A stretch of DNA of 48,631 nt from NCBI GenBank assembly GCA_004376575.1, contig SOJN01000023.1, positions 1 to 48,631 on the forward strand, in the 5' to 3' direction. Made by a program: the position numbers and the translations under genes. Positions 19,086 through 38,457 of this stretch are shown in pieces. This DNA comes from a candidate division TA06 bacterium. Its GTDB lineage: Bacteria > Hydrothermota > DG-26 > E44-bin18. Numbering within the stretch: the stretch's first letter is position 1; each line of letters starts with the position of its first letter. The notes below the pieces were generated by a model. That model was not told where the DNA came from. It ran no database searches and saw nothing but the letters and a program-made list of their open reading frames with translations.

Positions 19086-19700
19086 TTAGTGCAGCTCCAT
19101 GCTCGTCAGCCTCATCTCCCAGACCTGTCCTCTTACTTCAACTCTGGTCATCACCCTTCCCACGTTTTCCACGTACCAGTCAGTCGCCTTCATAACGAGG
19201 CTGTCATTTGGGATTCTTCTGTCCTCACAGTCGACCCGCAGCGCGTTCGCGAAGTTACCATAAGGCGTTTCCACGTTCTCCATTCCGCTGACATGAGCAG
19301 TTCTCAGCACGCCCCTTACCTGACGTACAGCCCACTCTCTGCCATCCCGAAGTGGGTAGTTGAGAACCGTATCTGCGCTAGGGTCAGCTAGATTGTTGTA
19401 TATGAGGAGTAGGTTGGACTTCCACTGGAGATTTATCGAATCCTTGAAAGTCCTTTTTTTCTCGAGCCAGAACCTTTTCTGCGAGACTTTCCAGGCTGAC
19501 TCTCCGGTAGGTCCAACCACCTTATCTTCGATCTCCCAGGCTATCGTATCTCCTTGGGACGGGACTACTCCTCCTACCCAGACCCAACGATTGCCTTCTG
19601 CCAGCGGAAAGTAATCTTCATTCGAGCCGGTTCCGATCTTACATCCAGAAAATGGAACAGCGAAAGATACGGCAATTAGCAGAATCACTTTCATGTTCAC
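19086..19700 (-). CDS. Hypothetical lipoprotein
   Basis: About 204 residues with a lipoprotein signal (KVILLIAVSFAVPFSGC, lipobox FSGC near residue 20) and a mature part rich in beta strands (YFPLAEGNRWVWVGG, then AWKVSQKRFW, then WYVENVGRVMTRVEVRGQ). The pattern, which reports on 'untidy' extracellular ligand-type folds, is common in candidate-phylum lipoproteins; I do not recognise a function. It starts at GTG 19700 overlapping the flavoprotein stop as GTGA, or at ATG 19694. An outer-surface lipoprotein between a redox subunit and fbp is unexpected. Confidence 0.6.
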   Translation of the reverse strand: MNMKVILLIAVSFAVPFSGCKIGTGSNEDYFPLAEGNRWVWVGGVVPSQGDTIAWEIEDKVVGPTGESAWKVSQKRFWLEKKRTFKDSINLQWKSNLLLIYNNLADPSADTVLNYPLRDGREWAVRQVRGVLRTAHVSGMENVETPYGNFANALRVDCEDRRIPNDSLVMKATDWYVENVGRVMTRVEVRGQVWEMRLTSMELH

Positions 19701-21322: not shown

Positions 21323-22003
21323 CTATCGAGGTTCCATATCTCTGTCTTTGTAAAGCTGCTTGAGCTTGTCCTGGTCTGCAGACATGAGTTCTCCGAGCTC
21401 GTCATCGAACTTGCTCGCTCCCACGGCAGCAACCATCTCTTGCAGGTGCTTTGCCTTCTTGGCAACGTACTTGCCGTAAAGCCTTCTGCACAGGACGGCA
21501 ATATTGTACTGTACAATTTCAGCGGGACATCTTACGGCACATAACCCGCACATGATACAGTCGAAAGAAAGGTCTGCAACCCTTGCGATATCTCCCCTCA
21601 GCGCAGCCTGAACATAATCCATTACCTGAATATCCTGAGGACAAATCTTTGTACAGGTATTACATGCGACACATCTGGCTAGCTCTGGATATTCCTTGAG
21701 TACCTGTTCGCCAGTAGGCTTCATCTTCTCTATGTCGTAGACCGCCTTGTTGGCAGGGAAGAACGGTATCTGAGTAAGATACATCCCATCCTCCACCATC
21801 GCCTGACAGGCAAGACCGACCTTTATCTTGTAATCGTCTGTAGTTCTGTACACCGTTCCGCATGCACCACAGAATCCACCTCTGCAACCGCATCCTCTCA
21901 CCAGCATGTAGCCAGCGTATTCCATTGCCTTCATGATGGTCAAGCTCTTGGGCACACTGTATTTCTTGCCCATTATGTAGATGTCAATATTCTCTTCGGC
22001 CAT
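21323..22003 (-). CDS. Fumarate reductase/succinate dehydrogenase-type iron-sulfur subunit
   Basis: 226 residues. The N-terminal domain is a [2Fe-2S] ferredoxin-like fold with C38/C40/C45/C48 and C66. The C-terminal domain carries two cluster motifs, C111-x2-C-x2-C-x3-C121 and C149-x2-C-x2-C-x3-C159. This is the FrdB/SdhB layout, though the spacing of the last cluster looks like [4Fe-4S]. Unlike methanogen TfrB it has no HdrB-like CCG domains; separate hdrB and hdrC genes lie 15 kb away. It would pass electrons between the HdrA/MvhD part and the flavoprotein. It sits 14 nt after the FrhB-like gene and 10 nt before the flavoprotein gene. Confidence 0.85.
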   Translation of the reverse strand: MAEENIDIYIMGKKYSVPKSLTIMKAMEYAGYMLVRGCGCRGGFCGACGTVYRTTDDYKIKVGLACQAMVEDGMYLTQIPFFPANKAVYDIEKMKPTGEQVLKEYPELARCVACNTCTKICPQDIQVMDYVQAALRGDIARVADLSFDCIMCGLCAVRCPAEIVQYNIAVLCRRLYGKYVAKKAKHLQEMVAAVGASKFDDELGELMSADQDKLKQLYKDRDMEPR

Positions 22004-22016: not shown

Positions 22017-23162
22017 TCAACGCGGCTCCAGCTCATCTTCCCGAAAGGTAGCAAGAGGAAGCTCCTCGTCAAATGCTCTTCCCGGAACATATTCGAAAAC
22101 CTTCTGGACTTCATTGCCCACCGTCTTGAAAACCTTGAGGAGTTCAACACCATTGGGGCACGCCTCCTCGCAAGATCCGCATCCAACACAAGATGAGGAC
22201 ATATGATTCAGCCGGCCAAGGTGAAAAAGTAGTGTGTCAGAAGGCATTCTGAGAGCACCCTTCTTCTGTGCCCTGCTCAGATACTTCCCAGGCTCAGCCT
22301 CGAAGGTGGCGGAGTCAAAAAAGCACTCTTTGCAATAGCATATGGGACAGGCTCTCATACAGTTATGGCAGTTGACGCAGTTAGCCAGAAGACTGAGAAG
22401 GTTATCCAGTCCAGCCACGTTTTCTGCCACATCCTGAAACATCTTCTTTTTCGCTTCTTCCCTCTTTTCAGTTACCTCAACAACGGTCTTTTCGTGGGCC
22501 TCGAAGGATGAAACAGATTCCAGTCCAAGTTCACCAAGTATCTTCTCGCCCTTTTCGGTGTTCGCTTCCAGGACCAGCTCGCCAGACAGATCAGAGCCCA
22601 TGAAGCAGATGATCACATCAGAACTGCTCACTGTAGGATGCTCACACACAAGACATGCTGACCTCATCTCTTCATCAAAGTCGCCAGATCTCACCTTGTC
22701 ATAAGCCTGCTTCGACTCAACACCTTGTCGCCTCTCGTCAGTGTAGGTCTTTGCCGGAAGGGCCCCATAGCAGTCGCTGGTGAAGATGATTGTCCCGTTC
22801 AGGTTTATCTGCTTGAGCTTGGTGAGCTCTACCGAGGCTCTCCACTCACATGGTCTAAGTACGGCAGCTATTGGGACTGGTTCTGTCTCAGCGTCTTCAC
22901 CCTCTGGCAGGGGCCGGGCCAATCTGGTCACATCAGAAAGGAGACTCGCGGCATTCAACGGCATTACCGGAGCGAGGATATCAATAGATTCGGTCTCAGA
23001 GGGAGCAGAAACGAGAGCGTACAACACGGAGGTTCCATTCGCTGAAACCTTTGGCGCAAGTATTGACTTAACCATGCCTTTTTCCAGCAGGGACTTTAGA
23101 AGACGGTTGATAGCTCCTGACACGTTCTCATTTTCGATTTTCAGCTTGAAGAACTTTCCCAT
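22017..23162 (-). CDS. FrhB/FdhB-like iron-sulfur protein of Hdr complexes
   Basis: 381 residues. The N-terminal two thirds resembles the FrhB/FdhB (F420 hydrogenase/formate dehydrogenase beta) family, with the RPCEWRASVELTKLKQ segment and a following SDCYG. Residues 262-280 hold C-x2-C-x2-C-x3-C plus three more Cys (CPICYCKEC), and residues 325-335 hold a second C-x2-C-x2-C-x3-C. Such proteins accompany HdrA and MvhD in Flox-Hdr and related clusters, where they link a flavin/iron-sulfur relay. Whether it binds its own flavin cannot be read. It lies between mvhD and the fumarate-reductase-type subunits, so I infer a relay role. Confidence 0.75.
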   Translation of the reverse strand: MGKFFKLKIENENVSGAINRLLKSLLEKGMVKSILAPKVSANGTSVLYALVSAPSETESIDILAPVMPLNAASLLSDVTRLARPLPEGEDAETEPVPIAAVLRPCEWRASVELTKLKQINLNGTIIFTSDCYGALPAKTYTDERRQGVESKQAYDKVRSGDFDEEMRSACLVCEHPTVSSSDVIICFMGSDLSGELVLEANTEKGEKILGELGLESVSSFEAHEKTVVEVTEKREEAKKKMFQDVAENVAGLDNLLSLLANCVNCHNCMRACPICYCKECFFDSATFEAEPGKYLSRAQKKGALRMPSDTLLFHLGRLNHMSSSCVGCGSCEEACPNGVELLKVFKTVGNEVQKVFEYVPGRAFDEELPLATFREDELEPR

Positions 23163-23639: not shown

Positions 23640-26600
23640 TCAAGTCAAAACCTCGAGCATGGCAAAGATGTCCTTCTCTTCGTATCTTCTCAGTGTTGAC
23701 GCACCATTCGGGCAGACCGCCGTGCATGTACCACAGCCCTGACATATGTGTTCTCTCACTTGGGCGATCATCTCATCGTAATCCATGTATCTTGCTTCGA
23801 AAGGACAGGCGGTTATGCACAGCTCACACGCAGAACACCTTCTCTTGTTCACTTCAGCGACTCCTGAACGCGCGGGCAGGTAGTCCTTTGACAAAAGAGT
23901 GCCTGCGCGGGCCGCTGCGGCATGTGCCGATGTTATCGCTTCGGATATGGACATGGGTGAATGAGCCGTGCCGCAAACATACATCCCATCTTTAGGAAGG
24001 TCCACTGGTCTGAACTTGACGTTTGCCTCCTCCAGGAAGAGGTCCTCAGTGATGCGCAGGTTCAGCGTCTTGGCTATTGCCACAGCAGGAGAAGGATCCA
24101 TGCCAAAAGCCAGAACCAGGTAGTCTGGTCTGAGACAAAAAGCCTCGTTCAGTAGAGGATCTCTTACGGTTATCTTCGGTCTTGAATCCACGACCTCCAC
24201 CTTCGGATAAGTTTCCAGATCATATCTAACAAATATCACACCTGCATCTCGTGCCTTCGTGTAAAGCTCTTCGTTGAACCCATACGTCATTATGTCTCTG
24301 TACAGGACAAAGACGTCGGAATCAGGATTTATCTCCTTCACCTTCAGAGCGTTCAGCAGCGCGTCCGAGCAGCATACCCTGCTACAAAACGGTCTTTCTT
24401 CTGTCCTTGAGCCTACGCACAGGATAAATACGAAGCTCTTCCCTTTTGCGACTAGAGAATCGGGCTTGAACAGGTCTTTTTCGAAGTCTGAGAGGGCAAT
24501 GATCCTTTCTGAGGTCTCATGGCCTGTCCGTTCTTCCTGAGCACCCACTGCGATTATTATGGCACCTGCGGCTATCGTTTCCTCTTTCCCCTTGGCTGCC
24601 ACAGTCACCTGGAAATCGCCGGCACAGCCTTCGACCTGCTTGATTTCAGAGTTGAACCTTACATGGATTTTCTTACTATCCCTGACGGCCTTCATCTTCT
24701 TATTCAGAAGAGAAGACAGATCTTCTGCTTCATAACTGACACGCTTATCCAACACCCTGCCACCAAGGCTTTCAGTTTTCTCTATGAGCTCCACCTGCAA
24801 CCCGCTGTCTGCAAGGTCAATGGCCGCTGTGATGCCTGCGATTCCACCTCCTATGACTACGGCTCGCTTCACCACTTTTTGTCTCAGGGTCGGATAGGAT
24901 CTAACTACTGCAGCCTTTTCCACTGCTCCTTCTATGAGAGCTTTGGCTTTCTCAGTGGCTGCAACAGATTTCTCATGCACCCACGAGAGCTGTTCCCTTA
25001 TGTTCACGACAGTCAGCATTTCAGGGTCGATTCCCGCTGCATCTGCTGCCTTGCGGAAGAGCATCTCATATGGGTGTATGCTGCAAGCTGCCACCACTAC
25101 TCTGTTGAGGTCTTGCTCCTTTATCGCGTCAGTCAGTTTCATCAGCCCCTCAGTAACGCAGAGAAAATTGACATCACTGACAGTCTTCACATACGGTAGG
25201 TTCTTAATCTCTTCGGCAATCCTGGGCAGATCAACCACATTCGAAACGTCCTCTCCGCAGCTACACAGAAACACACCTATGACAGGCTCGGCTACTGCTT
25301 CTTCTTGGTCAGAGACGGCTGCAGTTCCAGGAGATTCAGGAAGAAACTTAAGTGCTTCGCACGCAGCAGCGCTTGCCCTGACCACTGTGTCGGGTATGTC
25401 CGCAGGCGAAGAGAAAGATCCACAGACGAAGATGCCGTCTCTGCTCGTTGCGACCTGATCAAAGGGAAGCCCTCCGCAGAAACCGTAGGGGTTTAACTCG
25501 ATGCCCAACTTCTTGGCAAGGTCTATTGTTGAGGCCGGCTCTGTCTGGCCAACAGAAAGGACCACCATGTCGAACTTGTCATCGATCAACTTACCGGATT
25601 CATCCTCATAGGAAACGATGAGTTCCTTTGAATCGGTTACACCCTCAACAGCGGGGACTCTCGAACGGACGAACTTCACGCCACGTTTCGCAGCATCCTG
25701 GTAGTATCTGTGATACCCCTTGCCAAACGCCCTCATGTCCATGAAGAATATTGTCGGTTCAGAGTCGGGAAACTTGTCTTTCACCAGATTCGCCTCTTTT
25801 ATCGCATACATACAACACGCTGAGGAGCAGTATGGTCTTTTCTCATCTCTTGAGCCGACACATTGGAAAAAAGCAACCTTCTTTGGAATCTTCTCCAGCT
25901 CTTTCGGTGAAGTGCCGCTGAGCATTCTCTCAAACTCGGTGCTTGTCACGACGTTGGGATATCTGCTATGGCCAAATTCGTCTAGTTCATCAGCAGCAAA
26001 GGTCTTAAACCCGGGGTCTGCAACAATAGCCCCTACTGAGAGGACCAGAGTCTCTTCTTTTGCATCCAGATTTATCGCGTCGGTCGGACAAACTTCAACA
26101 CACTTTCCGCACTTATCGCAGGCATCTACATCTATGCAATAGTTATTGGGAACGGCATTGGGATGGGAGAGGTATATGGCCTTTCTCTTTATGAGACCTT
26201 CGTTGAAATCATCCTCAGCCTCTATTGGACAAATCTCTATACACTTGTTGCACCCCACACACTTTGATTTATCAACCATCCGGGGTCTCCGTACCACTGT
26301 CACCTCAAAGGCCCCGGCTTCGCCATCCACCTTCGCGAGTTCAGAAGATGTGAGTATTTCAATATTGGGGTGAATAAGAGTTCTTCTTAAACAGAACTCA
26401 CCCGCTCCCCTCGTATAGAAGGGCGGGAGTAACTTGCAGAGGGAGCAGTCGTCTGTTGGGAACCACTTGTCGAGTTGAGATGCCGTGCCCCCAACCTTGG
26501 GACTCCTGTCTAGCAGATAGACTTTGCGCCCGGACTCGGCAATGTCCAGGGCTGCTCTCATGCCGCCGACGCCCGCGCCGATGACGAGTGCTGCAGGTTC

Positions 26601-26669
26601 AGGCGTTCCTTTCTTCTTCGATTTTCTCTTTTTGGATTTTTTCTTCTTGCTGGTCTTCCGCTCTGCCAT
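23640..26669 (-). CDS. Double HdrA (tandem heterodisulfide reductase A-like flavoprotein)
   Basis: 1009 residues made of two HdrA-like units. The N-terminal 20 residues are almost all Lys, Arg and Ser. Unit 1 (about 25-445) has the FAD motif GAGVGG (31-36), DDCSLC, ferredoxin motifs at C137-C147 and C184-C194, and CVGSRDEKRPYCSSACC; it lacks the usual HdrA N-terminal domain. Unit 2 (about 462-930) has that domain (VFLCSCG, VVVAACSIHPYE, NIREQLSWVH), FAD motif GGGIAG (607-612) and a second CVGSR block, but no ferredoxin insert. Two [4Fe-4S] motifs close the protein (CSACELC, CQGCGTC). It would be the flavin hub of the complex, followed by mvhD. Confidence 0.88.
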   Translation of the reverse strand: MAERKTSKKKKSKKRKSKKKGTPEPAALVIGAGVGGMRAALDIAESGRKVYLLDRSPKVGGTASQLDKWFPTDDCSLCKLLPPFYTRGAGEFCLRRTLIHPNIEILTSSELAKVDGEAGAFEVTVVRRPRMVDKSKCVGCNKCIEICPIEAEDDFNEGLIKRKAIYLSHPNAVPNNYCIDVDACDKCGKCVEVCPTDAINLDAKEETLVLSVGAIVADPGFKTFAADELDEFGHSRYPNVVTSTEFERMLSGTSPKELEKIPKKVAFFQCVGSRDEKRPYCSSACCMYAIKEANLVKDKFPDSEPTIFFMDMRAFGKGYHRYYQDAAKRGVKFVRSRVPAVEGVTDSKELIVSYEDESGKLIDDKFDMVVLSVGQTEPASTIDLAKKLGIELNPYGFCGGLPFDQVATSRDGIFVCGSFSSPADIPDTVVRASAAACEALKFLPESPGTAAVSDQEEAVAEPVIGVFLCSCGEDVSNVVDLPRIAEEIKNLPYVKTVSDVNFLCVTEGLMKLTDAIKEQDLNRVVVAACSIHPYEMLFRKAADAAGIDPEMLTVVNIREQLSWVHEKSVAATEKAKALIEGAVEKAAVVRSYPTLRQKVVKRAVVIGGGIAGITAAIDLADSGLQVELIEKTESLGGRVLDKRVSYEAEDLSSLLNKKMKAVRDSKKIHVRFNSEIKQVEGCAGDFQVTVAAKGKEETIAAGAIIIAVGAQEERTGHETSERIIALSDFEKDLFKPDSLVAKGKSFVFILCVGSRTEERPFCSRVCCSDALLNALKVKEINPDSDVFVLYRDIMTYGFNEELYTKARDAGVIFVRYDLETYPKVEVVDSRPKITVRDPLLNEAFCLRPDYLVLAFGMDPSPAVAIAKTLNLRITEDLFLEEANVKFRPVDLPKDGMYVCGTAHSPMSISEAITSAHAAAARAGTLLSKDYLPARSGVAEVNKRRCSACELCITACPFEARYMDYDEMIAQVREHICQGCGTCTAVCPNGASTLRRYEEKDIFAMLEVLT

Positions 26670-26677: not shown

Positions 26678-28444
26678 CTAGAAGTCCTCGGTCGCAACAT
26701 GAACCATGTCCAAAACCTGTTTTCTGGTGAAGTTCCTATGCTGTATCGCACCTGACGGACAGGTTGCCGCACACCCACCGCAGCCTTCGCAGAGGACCTC
26801 ATTCACCACGGCCACATTTCTCTTGGGGTCCAGCTGAATCGCGTCATAGGCGCACGCATTTACACAGTATCCACATCCTGCGCAGAGTTCTTCATCCACC
26901 TCTGAGACTGTTGGATCGTGCTCCAGCTCGTCACTTGAGAAAAGGGAAATAACCTTCGCAGCAGCCCCGGAAGCCTGAGCAACCGTCTCCGGTATGTCCC
27001 TTGGCGCCTGGGCGGTGCCTGCCAGATAGATCCCCGTGGTCAAACTCTCAACAGGTCTCAGCTTCGGGTGAGCTTCTGAAAGAAATCCATGCTCATCTGT
27101 ACTGATCTTCAGCTTCTTAGCAACTTCGCCGGCACCTACAGATGGCAAGATGGCTGTGGCCAGAACCACCATGTCGGCATATATCTCTATTTTCTTTCCG
27201 GTCAGGGTATCGGCGCCCCAGACCACAACTCGCCCATCTTCTTGGAATATCTTGGAAACCTTTCCTCTGAAATAAAGGACCCCGTCCTCGTCCGTGGCTC
27301 TCTGAACGAACTCTTCATATCCTTTTCCGCCTGAGCGGATGTCTATGTAGAAGATGTATGGCTGCCCATCGTGGACTCTGTGTTTGTAGAGCATTGCATG
27401 TTTGACAGTGTACATGCAGCATATCTTTGAACAGTACGGCTGGTACCTTTCAGGCTCCCTTGAACCCGCGCACTGAACAAAAACAACCTCTTTCGGCACT
27501 TTGCCGTCCGATGGTCTCTTCACCTCTCCTCCCGTTGGTCCGGAGGCTGAAAGCAATCTCTCGAACTGGAGGCCAGTTATGACATCCGGGCAAGAGTCGT
27601 AATTGTACTCCTCGATAACCTCCTTGTTCATCACGTCGTAACCGGTGGCCACCACAATTGCGCCCACATCTTCCTCAACGATGGTGTCTTCCTCATCATA
27701 GACAATCGCCTTGGGCTGGCATACGGTTTCACATACTTTGCAGTTTCCCGTTTTGAAATACATGCAATTCTCTCTGTCTATGACTGGCGTGTTGGGGACC
27801 GCTTGGGGGAATGGAATGTAGATACATGGCCTCGTTTCAAGGCCTTCATTGAATTCAGAGAGTAGCGGGTTCACCGTTCTCTCTGAAATCTCCTCAACAG
27901 TGATCGCCCCGGTGGGACATGAATAGGCACATGCTCCGCAGGTCGTGCACACTTCCGAAAACTCCTTGTACGGTGGGGTAACCTCCATTTTTGCTCCACG
28001 GTTGGCAAAGCCAATGGCACCCACCCTCATCACCTCGTTGCATACCCTTACACACAAACCGCATAGCACGCACTTCTCTTCTTCATCCTTTGTTTTGAAT
28101 CTCGGGGCCTCAATACCCACCTTCTTCGCCAAATCCTGTATCACCTCAGAGCCGGGCGCCCTGGCCAATAGTAACTCCACAGTCACCTTACGAGCGTTCA
28201 TGGCTTTCTCTGAATCAGTTTTCACTTCCATGCCTTCTGCTACCATCTGGCCGCATGACGCAACCAGCTTGGATCGACCATTTTGAATCACCTCTACCAG
28301 ACAAACCCGACAAGCCTGATAGGGCTCGAGAGCAGGATGATAGCAGAGGGTCGGTATCTCAATACCCAGTTCCTTCGCGGCCTTCAAGATGGTCGTTCCT
28401 TCTTCGACTTCGACCTTCTGACCGTCAATGGTTAGATTTACCAT
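26678..28444 (-). CDS. NuoG(N-part)-HdrA(C-half) fusion
   Basis: 588 residues. Residues 1-95 are a NuoG/HydA-type [2Fe-2S] domain (C34, C45, C48, C64). Residues 125-135 and 166-176 are two C-x2-C-x2-C-x3-C ferredoxin motifs. From about 198 the sequence becomes the C-terminal half of HdrA: FNEGLETRPCIYIPFPQAVP, an AI-x-ATGYD motif, VITGLQFERLLSASGPTGG, CAGSREPERYQPYCSKICC, RSGGKGYEEF, HPKLRPVE, then two ferredoxin motifs at 521-531 and 552-562. The HdrA Rossmann FAD motif is absent; it occurs instead on the HdrA-NuoE fusion at 35142. No molybdopterin or H-cluster domain is present. The ATG overlaps the NuoF-GltD stop by 20 nt. Confidence 0.88.
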   Translation of the reverse strand: MVNLTIDGQKVEVEEGTTILKAAKELGIEIPTLCYHPALEPYQACRVCLVEVIQNGRSKLVASCGQMVAEGMEVKTDSEKAMNARKVTVELLLARAPGSEVIQDLAKKVGIEAPRFKTKDEEEKCVLCGLCVRVCNEVMRVGAIGFANRGAKMEVTPPYKEFSEVCTTCGACAYSCPTGAITVEEISERTVNPLLSEFNEGLETRPCIYIPFPQAVPNTPVIDRENCMYFKTGNCKVCETVCQPKAIVYDEEDTIVEEDVGAIVVATGYDVMNKEVIEEYNYDSCPDVITGLQFERLLSASGPTGGEVKRPSDGKVPKEVVFVQCAGSREPERYQPYCSKICCMYTVKHAMLYKHRVHDGQPYIFYIDIRSGGKGYEEFVQRATDEDGVLYFRGKVSKIFQEDGRVVVWGADTLTGKKIEIYADMVVLATAILPSVGAGEVAKKLKISTDEHGFLSEAHPKLRPVESLTTGIYLAGTAQAPRDIPETVAQASGAAAKVISLFSSDELEHDPTVSEVDEELCAGCGYCVNACAYDAIQLDPKRNVAVVNEVLCEGCGGCAATCPSGAIQHRNFTRKQVLDMVHVATEDF

Positions 28445-31400
28445 GCTTACTCTCTTCTAGAAATTTCTTGGCATCTTCTGTTCCCAGATCACACCGGAGA
28501 CAGCGTCTTGCTTCCTTTATTGCGATCTCCTCAGTGAATCCAAGGGTCACTTCTTTGAAATTCTTCATTCTCTCCTCGGCAGATAGAGCAGGCATTTCAG
28601 GACGTTGGGCCTGTTCTATCTCTTCGTCAGTCAGCTTAACCGATTCAACATACATTGATGGTCTGGTCACTTCATACTCTCGGGCCAGACTTTGTCCTCT
28701 TAGAAACTTATTTATTGATTCAGCAGCCGTTTTTCCTGCGCTAATAGCCTCCACAACCGTGCCAGGCCCGGTCACCACATCTCCACCAGCAAAGACCCCC
28801 GCTCGACTTGTCGTCAGTGTTTCTTCATCGACCACGACGGTATCCCACTTCGAGGTCTTGAGTTGGTCTTTCTCTGTCATGAAGGAAATATCCGGTCGTT
28901 CGCTGATGGCGGGTATCAAAGTATCTAACTCAACCGTAAACTCTGAACCTTTAATCGGAACAGGTCTTCTTCTTCCACTCTTATCTATGTCTCCCAACTT
29001 CATCCTGATACACTCAATCCCTGTCACTTTGCCGTCTTTTGTCAGTACTTTGACAGGAGCGGCAAGGAACTGTATGTCTATCCCTTCTTCAATTCCCTCA
29101 TCAACCTCTTCCTTGAAAGCAGGCATCTCTGCTCTCGTCCTTCTGTAGACAATAGTAACCTTTTCACAGTCTGGCAAACGGTTAGCAACTCTGGCTGCGT
29201 CCACCGCAGCATTTCCGCCGCCAATTATGCCCACCTTCTTTCCTATCTTGACTTCCTTGCCCAGATTAACAGCCTTCAAAAACTCTATTGAGTCAAGCAC
29301 GCCCTCTGCGTCTTCGTTGGGGATATTAAGCTTCAGGCTTTTGTGAGCTCCGATGGCAATAAATATTGCCTTAAACCCTTCTTCAAGCAAACCATCGATG
29401 GATATGTCCTCGCCCAATGCAGTATTCGTTTCTATCTTGACTCCTGCATTCTTGATTGACTCTACATCAAAACTGAGAACCTCTCTTGGTAGACGGTGGT
29501 GTGGTATTGCTATGGCCAGCATCCCTCCGACTTCGGGGAGAGCTTCGAAGACCGTAGTACCATATCCGTTGAGAGTGAGATAGTAGGCGCAGGTAAGGCC
29601 GGCTGGACCAGATCCTATAACAGCGACTCTTTCCTCTTTGGAACGTTCAGGTTTGGCAACGCTTTCTATATTCGATTCCATCGCGAAATCAGTAAGAAAT
29701 CGCTTTATCGTCCTGATCGCAATTGGATCCCCTCCTTCGCTTGCCTTGCATCTGTATTCACAAGGGTGATGGCAAACACGTCCACAGACACTTGGGAGGG
29801 GATTGTCCTTTCGGACTACGTCAAAAGCTTCCTTAAACTTCCCCTGGGCGGCTAGAGCTATATAGACAGCCGCTTCTGTGTCTATGGGGCAAGTGTGTTG
29901 ACAGGGGGAGGACACTATTTCCGTACACACTGCTGCGGAACATCTTTTTTGTCTTATGTGTGCTTCGTATTCGTTTCTGAAATACCGAATGGTGCTCAGC
30001 ACTGGATTGGGAGCAGTACTGCCAAGGCCGCAAAGGGAGCCATCAACTATGGCGTGTCCTAATTCTTCAAGTAGGTCGACGTCACCGTTCTTGCCTCGTC
30101 CCTCGCATATCTCAGTCAATATGTCCAACATTCTCTCAATACCTTCCCGACAAGGGGTGCATTGCCCGCAAGACTCGTCCAGGGTGAAGGTAAGAAAATA
30201 CCTGGCTACGTCAACCATGCAGGTGGTTTCATCCATCACTACCATTCCGCCTGAACCCATTATGGATCCTATTTTCGCCAGCTCTTCATAGTCCACTTGT
30301 AGGTCTAACAGGTCCGAAGGAATGCAGCCTCCAGATGGCCCGCCTGTCTGCACAGCCTTAAACTTCTTGTTGTCCGGAATTCCACCACCAATATCGTAAA
30401 TGATCTCACGAAGAGGTATGCCCATGGGAACTTCCACCAGCCCTGTATTGTTTATCTTCCCCACCAAAGAGAAAACCTTCGTTCCCTTACTGGTCTCAGT
30501 GCCGATATCTGAGAACCATTTGGCTTTCCTGAGAATTATGGGGGGAACATTTGCCCAGGTCTCCACATTATTGATGTTGGTGGGCTTGCCCCAGAGCCCC
30601 TTCTCTGCCGGATAAGGCGGACGAGGACGAGGACGACCCGCCCTACCCTCAATCGATGCCATGAGTGCCGTCTCCTCACCGCAAACAAATGCTCCGGCGC
30701 CTCTATGGATACTGACTTCGAAATCGAAATCGGTGCCAAGCATATTCTTCCCCAAGAGGCCGTAGTCCCTTGCCTGCTCAACTGCCCTGGTCAGCCTTTC
30801 CAATGCCAGAGGATACTCATTTCTTATGTATACGAAACCATGAGAAGAGCCAATAGCCTTGGCCCCAATTGTCATGCCCTCCAAGACGGAGTGTGGATCA
30901 GATTCAATAATACAGCGATCCATATATGCACCTGGATCACCCTCATCCGCGTTGCAGATTATGTATTTCTCGTCTCCAGGAGAACTTCTGGCCAGTTCCC
31001 ATTTTCTCCCAGTTGGAAAACCAGCTCCTCCTCTTCCCCGCAAGCCGGAATCCTTGACCTCTTGTACTATCTCCTCCGGGCTCATCGAAGTGAGGGCTTT
31101 AGCCAGGGCCCTATATCCGTCTCGAGCAATATATTCTTCGATGTTCTCGGGATCTATCAATCCCCGGTTTCGCAAAACAATCAATCTCTGCTTTGCGAAG
31201 AAACCAATGTCACTCATCTTCGGAATCGGCATCTCCCACTCCGAAGGAGTGTACATCAACCTTTTTACAGGTCTACCCTTGAGCAGATGCTCTTCCACCA
31301 AGTGAGGGATATCCTCCTTGGTAAACAACTGGTAGAATATGCCATCAGGCTGTACTATCATAATGGGGCCTTGCGCACACACACCCATACAACCAATGGA

Positions 31401-31532
31401 GGCAACCAGAACCTCATCTTCCAGGTCAAATCGTCTGATCTCGTTCTCCAGAGCCCCCCTCACATCGAAACCCGCATTGGAGGCGCACCCAGAGCCCGAA
31501 CAAACCATGACATGAGTCCTATATCTTTCCAT
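28425..31532 (-). CDS. NuoF-GltD fusion (NADH-binding subunit joined to a glutamate-synthase-small-chain-like FAD domain)
   Basis: 1035 residues. Residues 1-90 are a thioredoxin-like [2Fe-2S] domain (C11, C16, C48, C52). Residues about 110-520 are NuoF/HydB/HndC: GRGGAGFPTGRKW (FMN/NADH), CNADEGDPGAYMDR, GAGAFVCGEETAL, GKPTNINNVET, and a [4Fe-4S] site at C455, C458, C461 and C501. Residues about 530-1020 are GltD/NfnB-like: a cysteine-rich Fe-S lead (C531 to C595), FAD motif GSGPAG (640-645) and a second dinucleotide motif GGGNAAVDAAR. By family knowledge NuoF-type subunits of bifurcating enzymes oxidise or reduce NAD(H), and the GltD part could bind a second NAD(P)H. It is the entry point for nicotinamide electrons. 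Confidence 0.9.
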   Translation of the reverse strand: MERYRTHVMVCSGSGCASNAGFDVRGALENEIRRFDLEDEVLVASIGCMGVCAQGPIMIVQPDGIFYQLFTKEDIPHLVEEHLLKGRPVKRLMYTPSEWEMPIPKMSDIGFFAKQRLIVLRNRGLIDPENIEEYIARDGYRALAKALTSMSPEEIVQEVKDSGLRGRGGAGFPTGRKWELARSSPGDEKYIICNADEGDPGAYMDRCIIESDPHSVLEGMTIGAKAIGSSHGFVYIRNEYPLALERLTRAVEQARDYGLLGKNMLGTDFDFEVSIHRGAGAFVCGEETALMASIEGRAGRPRPRPPYPAEKGLWGKPTNINNVETWANVPPIILRKAKWFSDIGTETSKGTKVFSLVGKINNTGLVEVPMGIPLREIIYDIGGGIPDNKKFKAVQTGGPSGGCIPSDLLDLQVDYEELAKIGSIMGSGGMVVMDETTCMVDVARYFLTFTLDESCGQCTPCREGIERMLDILTEICEGRGKNGDVDLLEELGHAIVDGSLCGLGSTAPNPVLSTIRYFRNEYEAHIRQKRCSAAVCTEIVSSPCQHTCPIDTEAAVYIALAAQGKFKEAFDVVRKDNPLPSVCGRVCHHPCEYRCKASEGGDPIAIRTIKRFLTDFAMESNIESVAKPERSKEERVAVIGSGPAGLTCAYYLTLNGYGTTVFEALPEVGGMLAIAIPHHRLPREVLSFDVESIKNAGVKIETNTALGEDISIDGLLEEGFKAIFIAIGAHKSLKLNIPNEDAEGVLDSIEFLKAVNLGKEVKIGKKVGIIGGGNAAVDAARVANRLPDCEKVTIVYRRTRAEMPAFKEEVDEGIEEGIDIQFLAAPVKVLTKDGKVTGIECIRMKLGDIDKSGRRRPVPIKGSEFTVELDTLIPAISERPDISFMTEKDQLKTSKWDTVVVDEETLTTSRAGVFAGGDVVTGPGTVVEAISAGKTAAESINKFLRGQSLAREYEVTRPSMYVESVKLTDEEIEQAQRPEMPALSAEERMKNFKEVTLGFTEEIAIKEARRCLRCDLGTEDAKKFLEESKHGKSNH

Positions 31533-31916
31533 TTACGACACTCGCTCGCTTCCTATGGCTATTGCATGCTCTGTAACTATCTTCCCCCCGATTACATGCT
31601 CAGAAAAAATCTTCTGAATCTTCTCCTCTGTCAAATCAACATACTTCACAGGCGCTTCGCCCTTTAGTTCAACTGTAGCCATGGGCTCCCTACTGCACAG
31701 CCCAGCACAGCCAGATGTGGTAAGAATGATGTCCTTTGCATCACTCTCTTCAAGCAGTGCCATCAAGGTGCTCATTATCTTCCTCGCCCCAGCAGCTATC
31801 CCGCAGGTCCCCATGTGAACTGTAATCTTTGCCTTGCCTGCCCCCTCACGCAGCATGGTCATCTTCCTCATTCTCTCTCTAATCTTTTCCAAATCTTCGG
31901 GTCTCAGCTTAGGCAT
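31533..31916 (-). CDS. HndB-like thioredoxin-fold [2Fe-2S] ferredoxin, copy 1
   Basis: 127 residues from ATG 31916 (an in-frame TTG lies one codon earlier). The fold is that of HndB/NuoE-C-terminal ferredoxins: VHMGTCGIAAGARK with C38, then LTTSGCAGLCSREP with C70 and C74. The three-cysteine set is as I remember HndB. It lies directly before the NuoF-GltD gene, where HndB-type subunits normally sit. It is nearly identical to the protein at 34752, with a stretch of 246 identical nucleotides (31641-31886). Divergence is limited to both ends, which looks like gene conversion or recent duplication. Confidence 0.88.
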   Translation of the reverse strand: MPKLRPEDLEKIRERMRKMTMLREGAGKAKITVHMGTCGIAAGARKIMSTLMALLEESDAKDIILTTSGCAGLCSREPMATVELKGEAPVKYVDLTEEKIQKIFSEHVIGGKIVTEHAIAIGSERVS

Positions 31917-31922
31917 CAATGC

Positions 31923-32357
31923 TCACTCGTTTTTGCTATCTTCGATTTTCTCGTACTTGTATACGAACTCAATGTCAGGATTGCCGGCCCTCAAGATCCT
32001 CATAGTCTCAGGAATATCGCCCAGAGGCTTGCGATCAGGGTGGCTGTGCTGGAACGTAGCCTTGACTCTGGTCCCTATGCCGACCTTTGACTCTATCTCA
32101 ATATCTCCACCGCTCTGTCTTGCCGCTTGGGCTAGAAGGGGAAGTCCCAGTCCCACTTTTCTAACGCTCTTGGTAGTGAAGAATGGATCTAGCACTTTCT
32201 CGAGCCTCTCTTCGCTCATACCCTGGCCATTGTCTTTAATCTCAACCAAAAGCAGGTCTTTCTCCATGTCTTCGACAACCGTTATTTCAACCCTACTTGC
32301 AGAAACAGCGATTGAATTCTCCACAATGTCAAGAATATGCAAGGATATGTCCTCCAC
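31923..32357 (-). CDS. Small HATPase_c (anti-sigma/histidine-kinase-type ATPase)
   Basis: 144 residues consisting of a single GHKL ATPase domain: N-box (LDIVENSI), DNGQGM (G1), the lid region PFFTTKSVRKVGLGLPLL (G2), and GIGTRVKATF. There is no dimerisation or phosphoacceptor domain, so it is not a full histidine kinase; SpoIIAB/RsbW-type kinases look like this. The GTG at 32357 is three bases after the PHP stop, but GGAGG inside codons 1-3 would better serve a TTG at 32342. Genes of this type recur next to HydABC/Nuo-type iron-sulfur flavoproteins; their target is unknown. Confidence 0.8.
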   Translation of the reverse strand: MEDISLHILDIVENSIAVSASRVEITVVEDMEKDLLLVEIKDNGQGMSEERLEKVLDPFFTTKSVRKVGLGLPLLAQAARQSGGDIEIESKVGIGTRVKATFQHSHPDRKPLGDIPETMRILRAGNPDIEFVYKYEKIEDSKNE

Positions 32358-32360
32358 AAG

Positions 32361-33101
32361 TTAGTGGGTCACCGCCTTTCTCCCGTCTCTGTTCAGCAAG
32401 GCCTTGCTTAACTCATCAACGCTAAGATTTTCAGTAAAGAAAGAAGTATACGTTTCTCCTATGTCTTCCAAATAGTGCGCATCAGAGAACCTAACTATCG
32501 GAAAATCATTCACCTGAGGTAACCTTGCTTTCACCTCTTTCACGGGATTCCGCGGCGACACTTCCAGAGCGTCTATGTTCAACCCGTCAGGGATGAATCC
32601 AAGCTGGCCGATGATGCTGAAGGCTTCGCGGTCAACATGCGATGCAATTGCTATGCCGCCGGATTTGTGGACGATATCGACAATCTGTTCAATCAGAAGT
32701 GTGGTCGCCCCGATCAATAGCCTATCATTGATGCCCATTATACTGTCATTTTCATCTACGACCAGCTGTTCTCCAAAGTAGTCTTGATCATTTACTCCAG
32801 ATAAATGTTTGTAGACTATATCTTGAACACGGAGTAAATCTGCATCGTTTTCGAACAGAGCTAATACATGTACCTCTTCTTGCGACGTTATTTCAATTCC
32901 ACCAATGACTACAACGCCTACCCTTTCCCCTGCTTTCTTCACTGCCGGAACATTCTCCGCTGAATTATGATCACAGATAGCGATCACATCCAGGTTCTTT
33001 TTCTTGGCTTGTCCGACTATCAGAGTGGGTAGCATATTGTTGTCACCACAAGGAGAAAGGCACGTATGAATGTGTAGATCCCCCTTAAACTGATCCACCA
33101 T
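32361..33101 (-). CDS. PHP-domain phosphoesterase
   Basis: 246 residues from ATG 33101, which overlaps the DRTGG gene stop. A longer frame starting at 33149 would add a hydrophobic lead but overlap the DRTGG gene by 65 nt. PHP motifs are clear: GDLHIHTCLSPCGDN, AICDHNSAENV, GGIEITSQEEVHVLALF, and ASHVDREAFS. The family uses two or three metal ions to hydrolyse phosphoesters, often nucleotides. In this five-gene set it may turn over a signalling nucleotide, but that is inference. Confidence 0.85.
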   Translation of the reverse strand: MVDQFKGDLHIHTCLSPCGDNNMLPTLIVGQAKKKNLDVIAICDHNSAENVPAVKKAGERVGVVVIGGIEITSQEEVHVLALFENDADLLRVQDIVYKHLSGVNDQDYFGEQLVVDENDSIMGINDRLLIGATTLLIEQIVDIVHKSGGIAIASHVDREAFSIIGQLGFIPDGLNIDALEVSPRNPVKEVKARLPQVNDFPIVRFSDAHYLEDIGETYTSFFTENLSVDELSKALLNRDGRKAVTH

Positions 33102-33444
33102 CACCGACCCCGCGAACACCAAGATCATGCAGCCTACCAATAATCTCAAAGGCAGGCAGCTTACTCACCAGGATCGGGATGCCTTCGGTTTCAGCCTTCC
33201 TAATAGTTTCTTCCTCCGGATGCCTTCCGTTGACCAACAAAATTCCAGACACACGATTCAAGGAGGCGACGGCAACTATGTTCAGATGAATCTGAAGGGT
33301 AACCCAGATATTTCCCTCTCTACTATTGGCAATGACATCGCTCAGAAGATCGCTCGCATATCCTCCCCTTACTTCATTGTCGAGTTTGCTCGATCCGCAC
33401 ATGACTTCCAGATTCAGCTTATCGACTATCTCATTCAGTTTCAT
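33085..33444 (-). CDS. DRTGG-domain protein 1
   Basis: 119 residues. The DRTGG domain is seen in VRGGYASDLLSDVIANSREGNIWVTLQIHLNIVAVA when read in two parts: the A/G-SDLLSDV core and the following V-T-x-Q strand, then IPILVSKLPAFEIIGRLHDLG. DRTGG domains occur with CBS pairs and in phosphotransacetylase and are thought to bind small ligands. A second, diverged family member lies two genes upstream. The product is small and soluble and overlaps the PHP gene. Confidence 0.8.
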   Translation of the reverse strand: MKLNEIVDKLNLEVMCGSSKLDNEVRGGYASDLLSDVIANSREGNIWVTLQIHLNIVAVASLNRVSGILLVNGRHPEEETIRKAETEGIPILVSKLPAFEIIGRLHDLGVRGVGDGGSV

Positions 33445-33447
33445 GTC

Positions 33448-34371
33448 TCAATCCTTACGGTGTATGTTGATAGTGACCTTCAGACGCGTCCCCTTACCTA
33501 CGGTTGAAGTAAGGTCCATGACATCGGCACATTTCTTGATATTGCTTAGCCCCATGCCTGCCCCAAATCCCATTTCTCTGATCCATTCAGTTGCAGTTGA
33601 GTAGCCGGGTTGCATAGCTTTCTCAACATCGGGAATGCCGGGACCCGAATCTATAGCTTCGATCTGTATTCGATGTGGTTCTATGTTGACCAGAATCTCC
33701 CCACCTTCGCCATAGATGACCATGTTCATCTCTGCTTCGTAGGTAGCAACTGCCGCCCTGCGTATGATTCGAGGATGGACATTGAGGTGCTTTAAAGCCC
33801 TTTTGAGTCCGCTTGCGCTTGCACCGGCATTCTGGAAATCCCGGCCCGCTATGCGGAACTCCAACACAAGGCTAACCTTATTGGCAACTATCTCCTCAAA
33901 GATGCGACTCACTGAGTGATTCTGATCCTCCTCTTCGCGCCGAATAATGGCCAGCTTTTCCAGTAACCCTTGCACAATTGTACCTTTGGTGATGATCCCT
34001 ATTACTCTTCTATCTTTGCGTGTAATCACCGGGAATCGGCCAAATCCGTGTTTCTCAAACTTCTCAACAGCACTAACAAGCGAATCATCTACGTACACGC
34101 CTTCCACATCGCTGGTCATCCTCTGCGCAACCGAAGTGTCTGGCTGCCCTTCAGCTAACCAATCGATGAAGTCTTGAAGGCTAATGATCCCAACTAACTC
34201 ATCTCCGTCTACAACGGGCGCTCCTGAAATATGACCGGACCGGAGTATGTCTCTGAGTTCGCTCATTTTCGTCTCTACCGGAATCGAAATCACAACATGC
34301 TTCATCACATCGCTCACGGTCAGTTCATACAGTAACTCTTGAACCTTCGTGACTCTCTTCTCTTCAGCCAA
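33448..34371 (-). CDS. CBS-pair plus HATPase_c regulatory protein
   Basis: 307 residues from a TTG start that directly abuts the upstream stop. Residues about 18-70 and 80-137 form a CBS pair (VVISIPVETKMSEL, GAPVVDGDELVGIISLQDF, then RFPVITRKDRRVIGIITKG). Residues about 160-305 are a GHKL ATPase (NMVIYGEGG region, DSGPGI, GFGAGMGLSNIKKCADVM, GKGTRLKVTI) of the RsbW/SpoIIAB type. CBS pairs commonly sense adenine nucleotides or NAD(H), so this may be an energy- or redox-gated protein kinase. It lies between the two DRTGG genes in a tight run. Confidence 0.85.
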   Translation of the reverse strand: MAEEKRVTKVQELLYELTVSDVMKHVVISIPVETKMSELRDILRSGHISGAPVVDGDELVGIISLQDFIDWLAEGQPDTSVAQRMTSDVEGVYVDDSLVSAVEKFEKHGFGRFPVITRKDRRVIGIITKGTIVQGLLEKLAIIRREEEDQNHSVSRIFEEIVANKVSLVLEFRIAGRDFQNAGASASGLKRALKHLNVHPRIIRRAAVATYEAEMNMVIYGEGGEILVNIEPHRIQIEAIDSGPGIPDVEKAMQPGYSTATEWIREMGFGAGMGLSNIKKCADVMDLTSTVGKGTRLKVTINIHRKD

Positions 34372-34734
34372 CTAGAAACCTTTCTCAAAGTCGGAGCAGC
34401 CGGGCAACCCAGCCTTATACAACCTCCCGCAGGACTCATACATGAGAAGGTCGGTTGAGAGCAGCACAATCTTCTTTTCCTCAGCTAACCTTTTCGTATC
34501 CTCAGGGGGTTTCTTGCCTCTTGCGAAGCAGATTGCTATTATGCCGGCCACCTCTGCCGTGCGAACGCACTGAGGATTTACCAATCCAGTTAGGAGTATC
34601 GAGTCCGATTTGATGAAGGCCAGTACGTCACTCATCAGATCAGAGCCGCATGCCATCTTCACTTCCTTCTGAAGGTCTTCCGCTCCGACAATCACCTTTG
34701 CTTCAAGAATCTGTTTTATCTTCTCTAATCTCAT
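34372..34734 (-). CDS. DRTGG-domain protein 2
   Basis: 120 residues, a diverged paralogue of the DRTGG protein at 33085. The core reads KMACGSDLMSDVLAFIKSDSILLTG, where ACGSDLMSDV replaces the family's G-G-x-x-SDLLSDV, followed by IAICFARGKKPPE and ending VLLSTDLLMYESCGRLYKAGL. It likely binds a small ligand. It begins 17 nt after the second HndB-like ferredoxin gene and abuts the CBS-HATPase gene. Confidence 0.75.
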   Translation of the reverse strand: MRLEKIKQILEAKVIVGAEDLQKEVKMACGSDLMSDVLAFIKSDSILLTGLVNPQCVRTAEVAGIIAICFARGKKPPEDTKRLAEEKKIVLLSTDLLMYESCGRLYKAGLPGCSDFEKGF

Positions 34735-34751
34735 TCGGATGCTCCTCCTGC

Positions 34752-35135
34752 CTATGACACCTGCTCGCTTCCTATGGCTAAGGCGTGTTCAGTGACTATC
34801 TTCCCCCCAATTACGTGCTCAGAAAAAATCTTCCGAATCTTCTCCTCTGTCAAATCAATATACTTCACAGGCGCTTCGCCCTTTAGTTCAACTGTAGCCA
34901 TGGGCTCCCTACTGCACAGCCCAGCACAGCCAGATGTGGTAAGAATGATGTCCTTTGCATCACTCTCTTCAAGCAGTGCCATCAAGGTGCTCATTATCTT
35001 CCTCGCCCCAGCAGCTATCCCGCAGGTCCCCATGTGAACTGTAATCTTTGCCTTGCCTGCCCCCTCACGCAGCATGGTCATCTTCCTCATTCTCTCTCTA
35101 ATCTTCTCCAGGTCTTCAGGTTTCAGCTTCGGCAT
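34752..35135 (-). CDS. HndB-like thioredoxin-fold [2Fe-2S] ferredoxin, copy 2
   Basis: 127 residues with C38, C70 and C74 as in copy 1 at 31533. The two proteins differ at only a handful of positions (R/K5, V/I93, Q/R98-region and near the C-terminus). Bases 34860-35105 are identical to 31641-31886. It follows the HdrA-NuoE fusion by 6 nt, so each Nuo-type fusion has its own HndB-like ferredoxin next to it. The two copies bracket the five-gene signalling module as direct repeats. Confidence 0.88.
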   Translation of the reverse strand: MPKLKPEDLEKIRERMRKMTMLREGAGKAKITVHMGTCGIAAGARKIMSTLMALLEESDAKDIILTTSGCAGLCSREPMATVELKGEAPVKYIDLTEEKIRKIFSEHVIGGKIVTEHALAIGSEQVS

Positions 35136-35141
35136 CGATAG

Positions 35142-36419
35142 TTACCCGCCTTTGTACTTTTTCAGTATTGTGGGAATCTTTACCTGTCTTACCTTACCGT
35201 ACAAGTCGTCTCCAACTGTGACCACTGGTGCCAGGCCGCAGCAACCAAGACAGCGAACAGTCTCCAAGCTGAAATTCATGTCTTCTGTAGTCTGGCCTGC
35301 TTCAATGTTCAAGTCCTCCTCGACTCTCTCCAGCAATCTAGCTCCCCCCTGTACGTGGCAGGCAGTGCCGAGACAGACATTTATTGTGTATTTTCCCCTC
35401 GGCTCTAAGCTGAAAGCGTTGTAGAACGTAGCTATTTCGTACAGCTTGGACACAGGTATATCCAGCCTCTCGGCCACATAGAGAAGGGTTTCTTTGGGTA
35501 GGTAGTTGAACTCAGAGTTTATGTCCTCGAGAATGGGTATTTCGACCCCTTCTCCACCTTCGTATTTTCCTATTATCTCATCTAGCCTTGCCAGCAACTC
35601 TTTCTCTATGGCTGGAGCAATCGAAGGGACTTCAGGAATCTCAGGCCTGTTCCTCACAAGACAGTTGGTCCAGCAGTCTCCGCAGCCTGTGCACTTCTCC
35701 ATATCTACTGATCTCGCCTTTTTCTTAATCTTCGCCTTGAAATTGCCCACATAGCCTGAGATCTCCTCGAGTTCAGAGTACGTATGCAGTTTGATCAAGG
35801 GATTCTGGGCCACCTCGACCATCTTTGGGGTCATTATGCATTGAGAGCAGTCAAGGGTGGGAAATGTCTCTGAGAGCTGAGCCATGTGCCCGCCAATTGA
35901 AGGGTCCTTTTCAACGAGCAGGGTTTCATAGCCGCTGTTGGCGATGTCTAGTGCAGCCTGCATCCCAGCGATGCCGGCCCCGACTACAAGGGCTTTCTTG
36001 GTAACAGGGACCTTCACCGGTATCAAAGGTATATTCCTGCTCGCCTTCTCCACCATGGCCTGTATCAACTTGATCGCCTTGGCAGTCGCTTTCTCTCTGT
36101 CGTCATGGACCCAGCTGCACTGCTCTCTTATGTTAGCTTCTTCTAGGAGATATGGATTCAGCCCCGCGGACTGGGCAGCGCGCCGAAAAGTCGTCAGGTG
36201 GAGGTTAGGCGAACATGCCGCCACAACTACAGCGTCAAGCTCGTCATCTTCAATCGATTTTTTGATGAGGTTCTGTCCGGGATCCGAACACATGTATTGG
36301 TAGTGCTCGGCCCTCACAACTCCCGGATACTCGGCCAACTGTCGAGCTGCATGCGCAACATCAACGTTGGTCGCGATATTTATCCCGCAGTGGCATACAA
36401 AAACACCAATTTTCTTCAA
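35142..36419 (-). CDS. HdrA(N-half)-NuoE fusion
   Basis: 425 residues. Residues 1-130 are the HdrA N-terminal domain (VFVCHCGINIAT, MCSDPGQ, VVVAACSPNLHLTTFR, ANIREQCSWVHDD). FAD motif GAGIAG is at 147-152, then SIGGHMAQLSETFPTLDCSQC and one ferredoxin motif C243-x2-C-x2-C-x3-C253. The HdrA part stops there. Residues about 270-425 are NuoE: a helical bundle (FNYLPKETLLYVAERL, VSKLYEIATFYNAFSL), then C349-x4-C354 and C390-x3-C394 for [2Fe-2S]. The missing HdrA C-half is on the fusion at 26678. The start is TTG with AAAGGA about six bases upstream. It has its own promoter and is the first gene of the main redox operon. Confidence 0.9.
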   Translation of the reverse strand: MKKIGVFVCHCGINIATNVDVAHAARQLAEYPGVVRAEHYQYMCSDPGQNLIKKSIEDDELDAVVVAACSPNLHLTTFRRAAQSAGLNPYLLEEANIREQCSWVHDDREKATAKAIKLIQAMVEKASRNIPLIPVKVPVTKKALVVGAGIAGMQAALDIANSGYETLLVEKDPSIGGHMAQLSETFPTLDCSQCIMTPKMVEVAQNPLIKLHTYSELEEISGYVGNFKAKIKKKARSVDMEKCTGCGDCWTNCLVRNRPEIPEVPSIAPAIEKELLARLDEIIGKYEGGEGVEIPILEDINSEFNYLPKETLLYVAERLDIPVSKLYEIATFYNAFSLEPRGKYTINVCLGTACHVQGGARLLERVEEDLNIEAGQTTEDMNFSLETVRCLGCCGLAPVVTVGDDLYGKVRQVKIPTILKKYKGG

Positions 36420-36460
36420 TTCCGAGGTCCTTTTCCGTTACTACACAGTGTCCGGCTTCT

Positions 36461-36491: not shown

Positions 36492-36497
36492 CAGGAC

Positions 36498-36525
36498 ATT
36501 TTACGATAATAGGCAATCCAGTCAA
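36498..36525 (-). promoter_or_regulatory. Promoter of the main redox operon
   Basis: On the minus strand TTGACT (36525-36520), 16-nt spacer, TAAAAT (36503-36498). The start is expected near 36491, leaving a leader of about 70 nt. Confidence 0.7.
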
Positions 36526-37094: not shown

Positions 37095-37110
37095 CGATGT
37101 ACAGGGGGTG

Positions 37111-38049: not shown

Positions 38050-38457
38050 TTATCCTGTGAACTTTCTAAGGCAGCTCACTATTCCGGCCTGTGGAAGGCC
38101 CTCAAAGGTCTTCTCATCAATCTCATACGGTTTCACCTTGTCCACGTTCGCCCTGAGGATTATCTGCCTGGCTGCCTCCATCACTTTTGCAACATCAATC
38201 CCCTTGGGACACCTCGACTCGCAAGTGAAACAACTGTCACACACCCAGATGGTCCTGCTGGCAAGGACTTCATCCTTCTCGCCTATCTGGAGAAGCCTTA
38301 TTATCTGGTTCGGCAGTATGTCCATCGAATCGACACTGGGGCAACCCGCTGAGCACTTTCCACACTGGAAGCACTTAGAAATCTGCTCACCACTGATTTC
38401 TTCAATCCTGGCTATGACTTCATCTCTCAGCTTTTTGCGTGATATCCTTACTCTCAT
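38050..38457 (-). CDS. hdrC: Heterodisulfide reductase subunit C-like protein
   Basis: 135 residues with the two HdrC ferredoxin motifs CFQCGKCSAGCP (about residue 29-40) and CDSCFTCESRCP (about 73-84). By family knowledge HdrC passes electrons from HdrA to HdrB. No membrane segment is present, so the complex should be soluble. It begins 41 nt after the MBL-fold gene, with no promoter I can see in between, so it may be read through from the tpiA operon. Confidence 0.92.
   Translation of the reverse strand: MRVRISRKKLRDEVIARIEEISGEQISKCFQCGKCSAGCPSVDSMDILPNQIIRLLQIGEKDEVLASRTIWVCDSCFTCESRCPKGIDVAKVMEAARQIILRANVDKVKPYEIDEKTFEGLPQAGIVSCLRKFTG

Follow-up and report, generated by a model that had tools for sequence, protein, structure and literature searches.

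The closest described relatives of the system analyzed here belong to two known classes of electron-bifurcating enzymes, HdrA and Bfu, which occur together in the literature searched only as separate subunits, in Bam. In the HdrABC-MvhAGD and HdrABC-Fdh complexes of methanogens, HdrA is one polypeptide, its inserted ferredoxin serves free ferredoxin, and there are no Nuo-type subunits. FlxABCD-HdrABC of Desulfovibrio links a dehydrogenase of reduced nicotinamide adenine dinucleotide (NADH) to HdrABC in anaerobic bacteria; the Flx proteins are separate subunits and are not known to be of the NuoEFG type. The BfuABC (HydABC-like) family is described in PMC9304861. Here we analyzed a window of 48,631 nucleotides (the whole stretch of DNA, contig SOJN01000023.1) from a candidate division TA06 bacterium, in which HdrA is divided between two genes, one fused to NuoE and the other to the N-terminal end of NuoG. 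We propose, with a probability of about 0.7, that a HydABC/BfuABC-type module has been spliced into the inserted ferredoxin of HdrA and that the two HdrA halves reassemble as one Hdr-Bfu complex.

The features that carry this proposal, including the two four-cysteine motifs (FdI and FdII) of the inserted ferredoxin, are as follows.

35142..36419, minus strand: N-fusion, consisting of the HdrA N-terminal domain, the first part of the thioredoxin reductase (TrxR)/flavin adenine dinucleotide (FAD) domain and FdI (residues 1-259), then NuoE/HydC (residues 276-425)
35661..35693, minus strand: FdI, first half of the split ferredoxin (C243, C246, C249, C253) and last HdrA element before NuoE
28425..31532, minus strand: HydB/BfuB-type NuoF (residues 3-541) ending in a fused GltD/NfnB-like domain
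26678..28444, minus strand: C-fusion, with the NuoG/HydA N-terminus at residues 1-190 and all of HdrA from position 262 onward at residues 196-588
27719..27766, minus strand: FdII, second half of the split ferredoxin (C227, C235, C238, C242)

The initial annotation, made from the sequence alone, had read the N-fusion as the HdrA N-domain, the Rossmann FAD motif and FdI (C243-C253) followed by NuoE. The open reading frames of both fusions are as annotated, and the alignments to 5odc_A and PF01257 agree with that reading. The N-fusion has 425 residues and a TTG start; it aligns with residues 5-258 of M. thermolithotrophicus HdrA (5odc_A, whose numbering is used for HdrA) at E = 6.6e-92, and its residues 280-423 are NuoE/HydC (PF01257, E = 3e-49; HydC matches too), as in a BfuC-type, NuoE-like [2Fe-2S] subunit. 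The C-fusion has 588 residues, of which 1-191 match the NuoG/HydA N-terminus and 196-579 match HdrA 262-644 (E = 2e-104); its switch from NuoG to the post-ferredoxin part of HdrA, previously placed near residue 198, thus lies at residue 196 (HdrA 262). HdrA homology stops at 256-258 in the N-fusion and restarts at 262 in the C-fusion, with approximately only residues 259-261 missing, and the break points do meet on alignment to full-length HdrA. The second ferredoxin motif in NuoG resembles HdrA FdI, and for this reason the HdrA match of the C-fusion can begin as early as about 246 with HMMER and BLAST.

The cut falls between FdI and FdII. Since the inserted ferredoxin of HdrA itself sits inside the TrxR/FAD domain (PMC9012536), both the FAD domain and the ferredoxin are split over two genes, which lie about 6.7 kb apart in the window; the HdrA domains are not in one polypeptide. 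Each half has what the other lacks, as the initial annotation had supposed. The N-fusion holds the GxGxxG Rossmann motif, and the C-fusion has E356, K409, the ATG-type motif and the FAD-binding stretch at the C-terminal end. A complete FAD site in each half would have spoken against complementation, but neither chain holds one.

The residues concerned are conserved in the collected set of 30 N-fusions and 32 C-fusions. FdI (5odc C246/249/252/256) is complete in 30/30 N-fusions and FdII (5odc C293/296/299/303) in 32/32 C-fusions. E356 and K409, which PMC12054007 assigns to the bifurcating FAD, are kept in all 32 C-fusions together with C386, C399, C403 and C404, and both NuoG ferredoxin motifs are complete in 32/32 as well. 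The N-fusion of the window has the cluster cysteines of the HdrA N-terminal domain, the Rossmann FAD motif and DCSxC with Cys197, the ligand given to the other protomer; its C9, C11, C44, C69, G147xG149xxG152 and C191/C194 are invariant in the alignment with intact HdrA. The window N-fusion contains one four-cysteine motif and the C-fusion five (two of NuoG, FdII and two C-terminal). The number is odd for each chain and even only for the pair, and we therefore infer from ferredoxin folds that FdI and FdII meet across the chains.

More importantly, the fusions recur, and they recur as pairs. We distinguish class A, with a cut single HdrA (the window, L017-L022 and others), from class B, in which a double (type II) HdrA is cut at the same point; class A accounts for 13 of the loci with the pair and class B for about 19. 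The order HdrA-N-NuoE / NuoF / NuoG-HdrA-C is the usual one and is repeated in six loci of other genomes (L017-L022), and a second copy of the pair in the source genome (L131, contig C128) is 57% identical and has no nuoF. We surveyed 147 genomes of the host phylum, the GTDB phylum with records named Candidatus Stahlbacteria (WOR-3); two loci of the phylum have the same DNA as contigs so named. Both fusions are present in 21 of them, the N-fusion only in 1, the C-fusion only in 2 and neither in 123 (Fisher p = 3.8e-22). This value overstates independence because genomes of one phylum are related; what matters is the near-lack of singles. In all three single-fusion genomes (G130, G086 and G110), contigs end inside the operon and truncate it. 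No genome with truly one fusion was found in the survey, each apparent case being a contig end or having its partner elsewhere in the genome. For instance, both fusions lie about 80 kb apart in the single-contig genome G082 and on two contigs in G137.

A second, small phylum has the fusions in 6 of 17 genomes, and never one without the other. Nine of these pairs belong to class A, with both genes on a single contig; one more is of class B and is divided between two contigs. The fusions were also seen in a genome of the Phycisphaerae (L019) and in several more from the same phylum. The fusion pair is a real design and not an artefact, because the matched pair recurs in at least three phyla.

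The initial annotation had described the attached subunits as a NuoEFG-like NADH module. Homologues of NuoE, NuoF and the NuoG N-terminus are indeed present, but the module is not ordinary NuoEFG and instead is of the bifurcating HydABC/Bfu type. The L017 NuoF aligns over its full length with HydB of the NiFe and FeFe hydrogenases that bifurcate electrons (E = 8e-260 and 2e-255), and far more weakly with complex I NuoF (E = 9e-121); therefore the module is of the Bfu type and not plain complex I. BfuB proteins comprise an N-terminal [2Fe-2S] domain, a domain for flavin mononucleotide (FMN) and NADH, the NuoF [4Fe-4S] site and a C-terminal dicluster ferredoxin; in most other loci, this architecture was recognised by a match to the C-terminal ferredoxin. 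The N-terminus of the C-fusion has the 2Fe-2S site and two four-cysteine motifs (one 2x[4Fe-4S] ferredoxin) of a BfuA subunit, with 9mqx_A and HydA1 as best matches. The HxxxCxxC-type motif expected for the N5 cluster is absent from the NuoG part in 32/32 C-fusions.

According to the proposed mechanism, HdrA would be built as two polypeptides, with HdrA-N welded to NuoE (BfuC) and HdrA-C to the end of NuoG (BfuA), and NuoF (BfuB) would be the third subunit of the module. The FAD site and the inserted 2x[4Fe-4S] ferredoxin would be formed by both chains; by standard ferredoxin wiring, each cluster would have three of its cysteine ligands on one chain and the fourth on the other. The HdrA ferredoxin, usually the low-potential exit to free ferredoxin, would be hard-wired to the iron-sulphur chain of NuoG. 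NADH and ferredoxin would exchange electrons with NuoF, which would carry FMN, and the path between NuoF and the bifurcating FAD of HdrA would run through the NuoG clusters and the two-chain ferredoxin. From this FAD, electrons would pass to HdrC-HdrB, and probably also to a FrdAB-like pair and MvhD. The most detailed version of this model, in which a cross-chain FAD and two [4Fe-4S] clusters are spliced to a BfuBC centre, two bifurcation sites work in series via one internal ferredoxin and the same cut arose in at least two HdrA lineages, is tentative, and we rate it slightly below an even chance.

Structure models are only consistent with the proposed assembly. AlphaFold2 modelled the single N-fusion chain with a predicted local distance difference test (pLDDT) score of about 90 in the HdrA N-domain, 70-90 in NuoE and mostly 30-70 at residues 131-262. 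For the single C-fusion chain, residues 116-220 and 457-510 scored below 50 and much of the middle 60-90; the weak stretch includes the NuoG ferredoxin at 116-190. The weakly modelled parts include those that each half would have to complete in its partner. Foldseek matched both single-chain models to HdrA and NuoE/HydA chains at large root-mean-square deviation, which adds little to the sequence comparison.

Several points weigh against the Hdr-Bfu proposal. We infer the assembly of the halves, the cross-chain ligation and the electron path from sequence. The AlphaFold alignments were shallow (17-18 sequences), and the models have no intact-HdrA control. The NuoG motif beside the junction resembles FdI, and HdrA-C could use it, leaving FdI unpaired. 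Three class A pairs (L131, L139 and L166) have no nuoF between the two fusions. Moreover, the C-terminal dicluster ferredoxin of the window NuoF is replaced by a GltD unit with its own Fer4_20, and therefore bifurcation at the window NuoF is uncertain.

This last point bears on the alternative that survives best, a simple NADH-fed Hdr system in which a plain NADH dehydrogenase module feeds electrons in and the HdrA FAD is the only site of bifurcation. One bifurcating site would strictly suffice, and the window NuoF has lost the dicluster typical of BfuB. In most relatives, however, NuoF appears to retain the full HydB/BfuB architecture, and therefore two bifurcating sites are likely in those relatives. 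We consider a single site unlikely, though far from negligible. The same holds for its corollary that free ferredoxin is reduced elsewhere, such as at the C-terminal ferredoxin/MvhD end. The whole alternative bears on mechanism rather than assembly and is compatible with the favoured architecture.

It is considerably less probable that the halves do not rebuild HdrA and that each is an adaptor that docks on an intact HdrA also encoded in the genome, such as the type II HdrA of the same operon, and only tethers the NADH module to it. Intact HdrA copies do exist in the same genome and operon, and HdrA is dimeric in the solved complex, with one cluster common to both protomers (PMC9012536). Yet adaptors would not need the FAD, cluster and bifurcation residues, which are kept in every N-fusion (30/30) and C-fusion (32/32) of the set; a Rossmann/FAD domain cut in two would probably not be stable on its own, and the near-perfect co-occurrence of the two fusions also argues against docking. 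Equally improbable, in our estimate, is completion of the ferredoxin in cis, whereby HdrA-C would use the second NuoG motif in place of FdI and the FAD site would still be common to the halves. That motif lies about 60 residues ahead of FdII and aligns with FdI; such pairing would, however, leave the first NuoG motif unpaired and the FdI of the N-fusion without a role, although its four cysteines are kept in 30/30. An assembly or annotation artefact joining a broken hdrA to nuoE and nuoG by chance can be dismissed, since beyond the draft state of the genome nothing supports it and the pair exists in a second source-genome copy (C128), dozens of loci, at least three phyla and single-contig genomes (G082, G094 and G111).

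The two classes differ in the HdrA that was cut. In class B, the N-fusion has no HdrA N-domain (about 300 residues) and the C-fusion contains another HdrA unit (about 1,100 residues), in which the N-domain is present and DCSxC is absent wherever readable; the same complementary pattern has been described for fused and tandem HdrA in archaea (PMC9012536). In the HdrA tree, both placements, class A with type I and class B with type II/III HdrA, are fully supported. A single origin of the HdrA halves of all fusions (one clade) was rejected by the approximately unbiased (AU) test (p = 9e-10), and class A as one HdrA clade was disfavoured (p = 0.007). The NuoG-part tree groups class A together, without strong support. 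Either the same point was cut on several occasions, or recombination with intact hdrA genes replaced the HdrA halves of an old fused module.

A further occupant of the same point was found in the host phylum, where loci L144-L147 encode single-chain HdrA of 1,485-1,677 residues with GltD inserted at the cut point of the fusions. This supports the view that the Nuo-type module was itself placed inside the inserted ferredoxin. The first FAD part of these proteins reaches 83% identity with class B N-fusions, and the type III HdrA of the host phylum are the nearest relatives of the class B HdrA halves. L144-L147 are bacterial type III HdrA (double HdrA plus GltD), one of which also ends in MvhD; type III HdrA (PMC12054007), or HdrA-NfnB (PMC9012536), had been described in archaea.

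The source genome is a draft of 3.0 Mb in 150 contigs and is 97% complete. In the window, the fusion genes belong to a minus-strand operon-like run that starts at 38457 with HdrC, HdrB, a 690 bp gap, the N-fusion and a 2Fe-2S protein. It continues with DRTGG, CBS/ATPase, DRTGG, PHP, ATPase and a second 2Fe-2S protein, and ends with NuoF/GltD, the C-fusion, a type II HdrA, MvhD and FdhB/FrhB-, FrdB- and FrdA-like proteins. The remaining features are listed below.

38050..38457, minus strand: HdrC, also upstream of the N-fusion in loci L017, L128, L129, L164, L165 and L167
37111..38046, minus strand: HdrB with two CCG domains
34752..35135, minus strand: thioredoxin-like [2Fe-2S] ferredoxin, copy a
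31923..34734, minus strand: accessory cassette of five genes (DRTGG-like, CBS-HATPase, DRTGG-like, PHP, HATPase)
31533..31919, minus strand: thioredoxin-like [2Fe-2S] ferredoxin, copy b, 95% identical in DNA to copy a
23640..26669, minus strand: intact double (type II) HdrA, 1009 residues
23178..23600, minus strand: MvhD/FlpD
22017..23162, minus strand: iron-sulphur subunit, FdhB/FrhB-like by eye, a name that families did not confirm
21323..22003, minus strand: FrdB/TfrB-like iron-sulphur subunit
19697..21313, minus strand: FrdA/TfrA-like flavoprotein

The 690 bp between hdrB and the N-fusion (36420-37110) contain no convincing gene, and in L017 the two genes adjoin. The two thioredoxin-like ferredoxin copies bracket the cassette in the window; L017 has one copy. 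The cassette, in which CBS-HATPase and HATPase were compared with family libraries and DRTGG and PHP were read by eye from the sequence, is embedded in operons of both classes, including L017, and occurs in loci L125, L133-L135, L140, L142, L151, L159 and L161 (many of them class B). This conserved cassette is probably regulatory. At 39424-40023, a protein of 199 residues resembles ribosomal protein bL21 by eye and has a long lysine/alanine-rich C-terminal tail.

Class A operons have the FrdAB-like pair beside them in L020, L165 and L167 as well as in the window; in L017 only the FrdB-like gene is seen before the contig ends. Such FrdB/FrdA-like genes beside class A operons occur in two phyla. 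These neighbours make it plausible that the acceptor is of the fumarate or disulfide type, as with TfrAB. The FrdA-like protein is TfrA/NadB-like but scores below the family cut-offs, far below in the case of TfrA (335 against a cut-off of 718), and may use another substrate.

In several intact HdrA genes of the source genome, namely those on contigs C27, C65 and C40 (loci L156, L137 and L013), and in the class B N-fusion of L163, an in-frame TGA falls exactly where DCSxC has its second cysteine (Cys197). The source genome also has a selenocysteine tRNA (tRNA-Sec) above cut-off (C123:23222-23312). Together, these observations make selenocysteine likely at the Cys197 site of these HdrA.

Taken together, the split HdrA fused to NuoE and NuoG is apparently an undescribed Hdr-Bfu hybrid. 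No HdrA-NuoE or NuoG-HdrA fusion and no split HdrA joined to NuoE and NuoG was found in the open literature searched, which does not prove absence from the literature, and the sections of PMC9304861 consulted describe no Hdr-type Bfu member with a fused or split HdrA. Annotation pipelines will label the genes HdrA, NuoE or NuoG and overlook the complex. With this weld, the ferredoxin exit of HdrA would no longer serve free ferredoxin as it usually does, and a single three-gene module makes it directly testable what the inserted ferredoxin does and whether two bifurcating sites can work in series.

The HdrA residues, HdrB, HdrC and MvhD of the methanogen complexes are all present in this system. 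With the BfuABC family (HydABC, NfnABC/StnABC, Fdh-, F420-, NiFe- and Bam-Bfu; PMC9304861), it shares homologues of NuoE, NuoF and the NuoG N-terminus. In the Type 1 Bfu enzymes described there, the BfuA-like subunit carries a foreign C-terminal catalytic domain, as does the C-fusion; here, however, the attached unit is half an HdrA, the other half is on BfuC, and the window NuoF ends in GltD. Bam, the class II benzoyl-CoA reductase, also combines an HdrA-type module with BfuABC (BamGHI). Its HdrA (BamE) is a separate subunit and a tungstopterin reductase (BamB) is present, whereas here HdrA is split and fused, and no tungstopterin BamB-type gene was found among the scanned proteins of the window cluster. 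Type III HdrA (PMC12054007, PMC9012536) has the same insertion point, with an NAD(P)H module likewise placed there, but it is one chain with GltD, while here the chain is cut and the gap is filled by NuoE, NuoF and NuoG. The recurrent split in two HdrA lineages, together with GltD at the same point, marks the inserted ferredoxin as a docking site for NAD(P)H modules.

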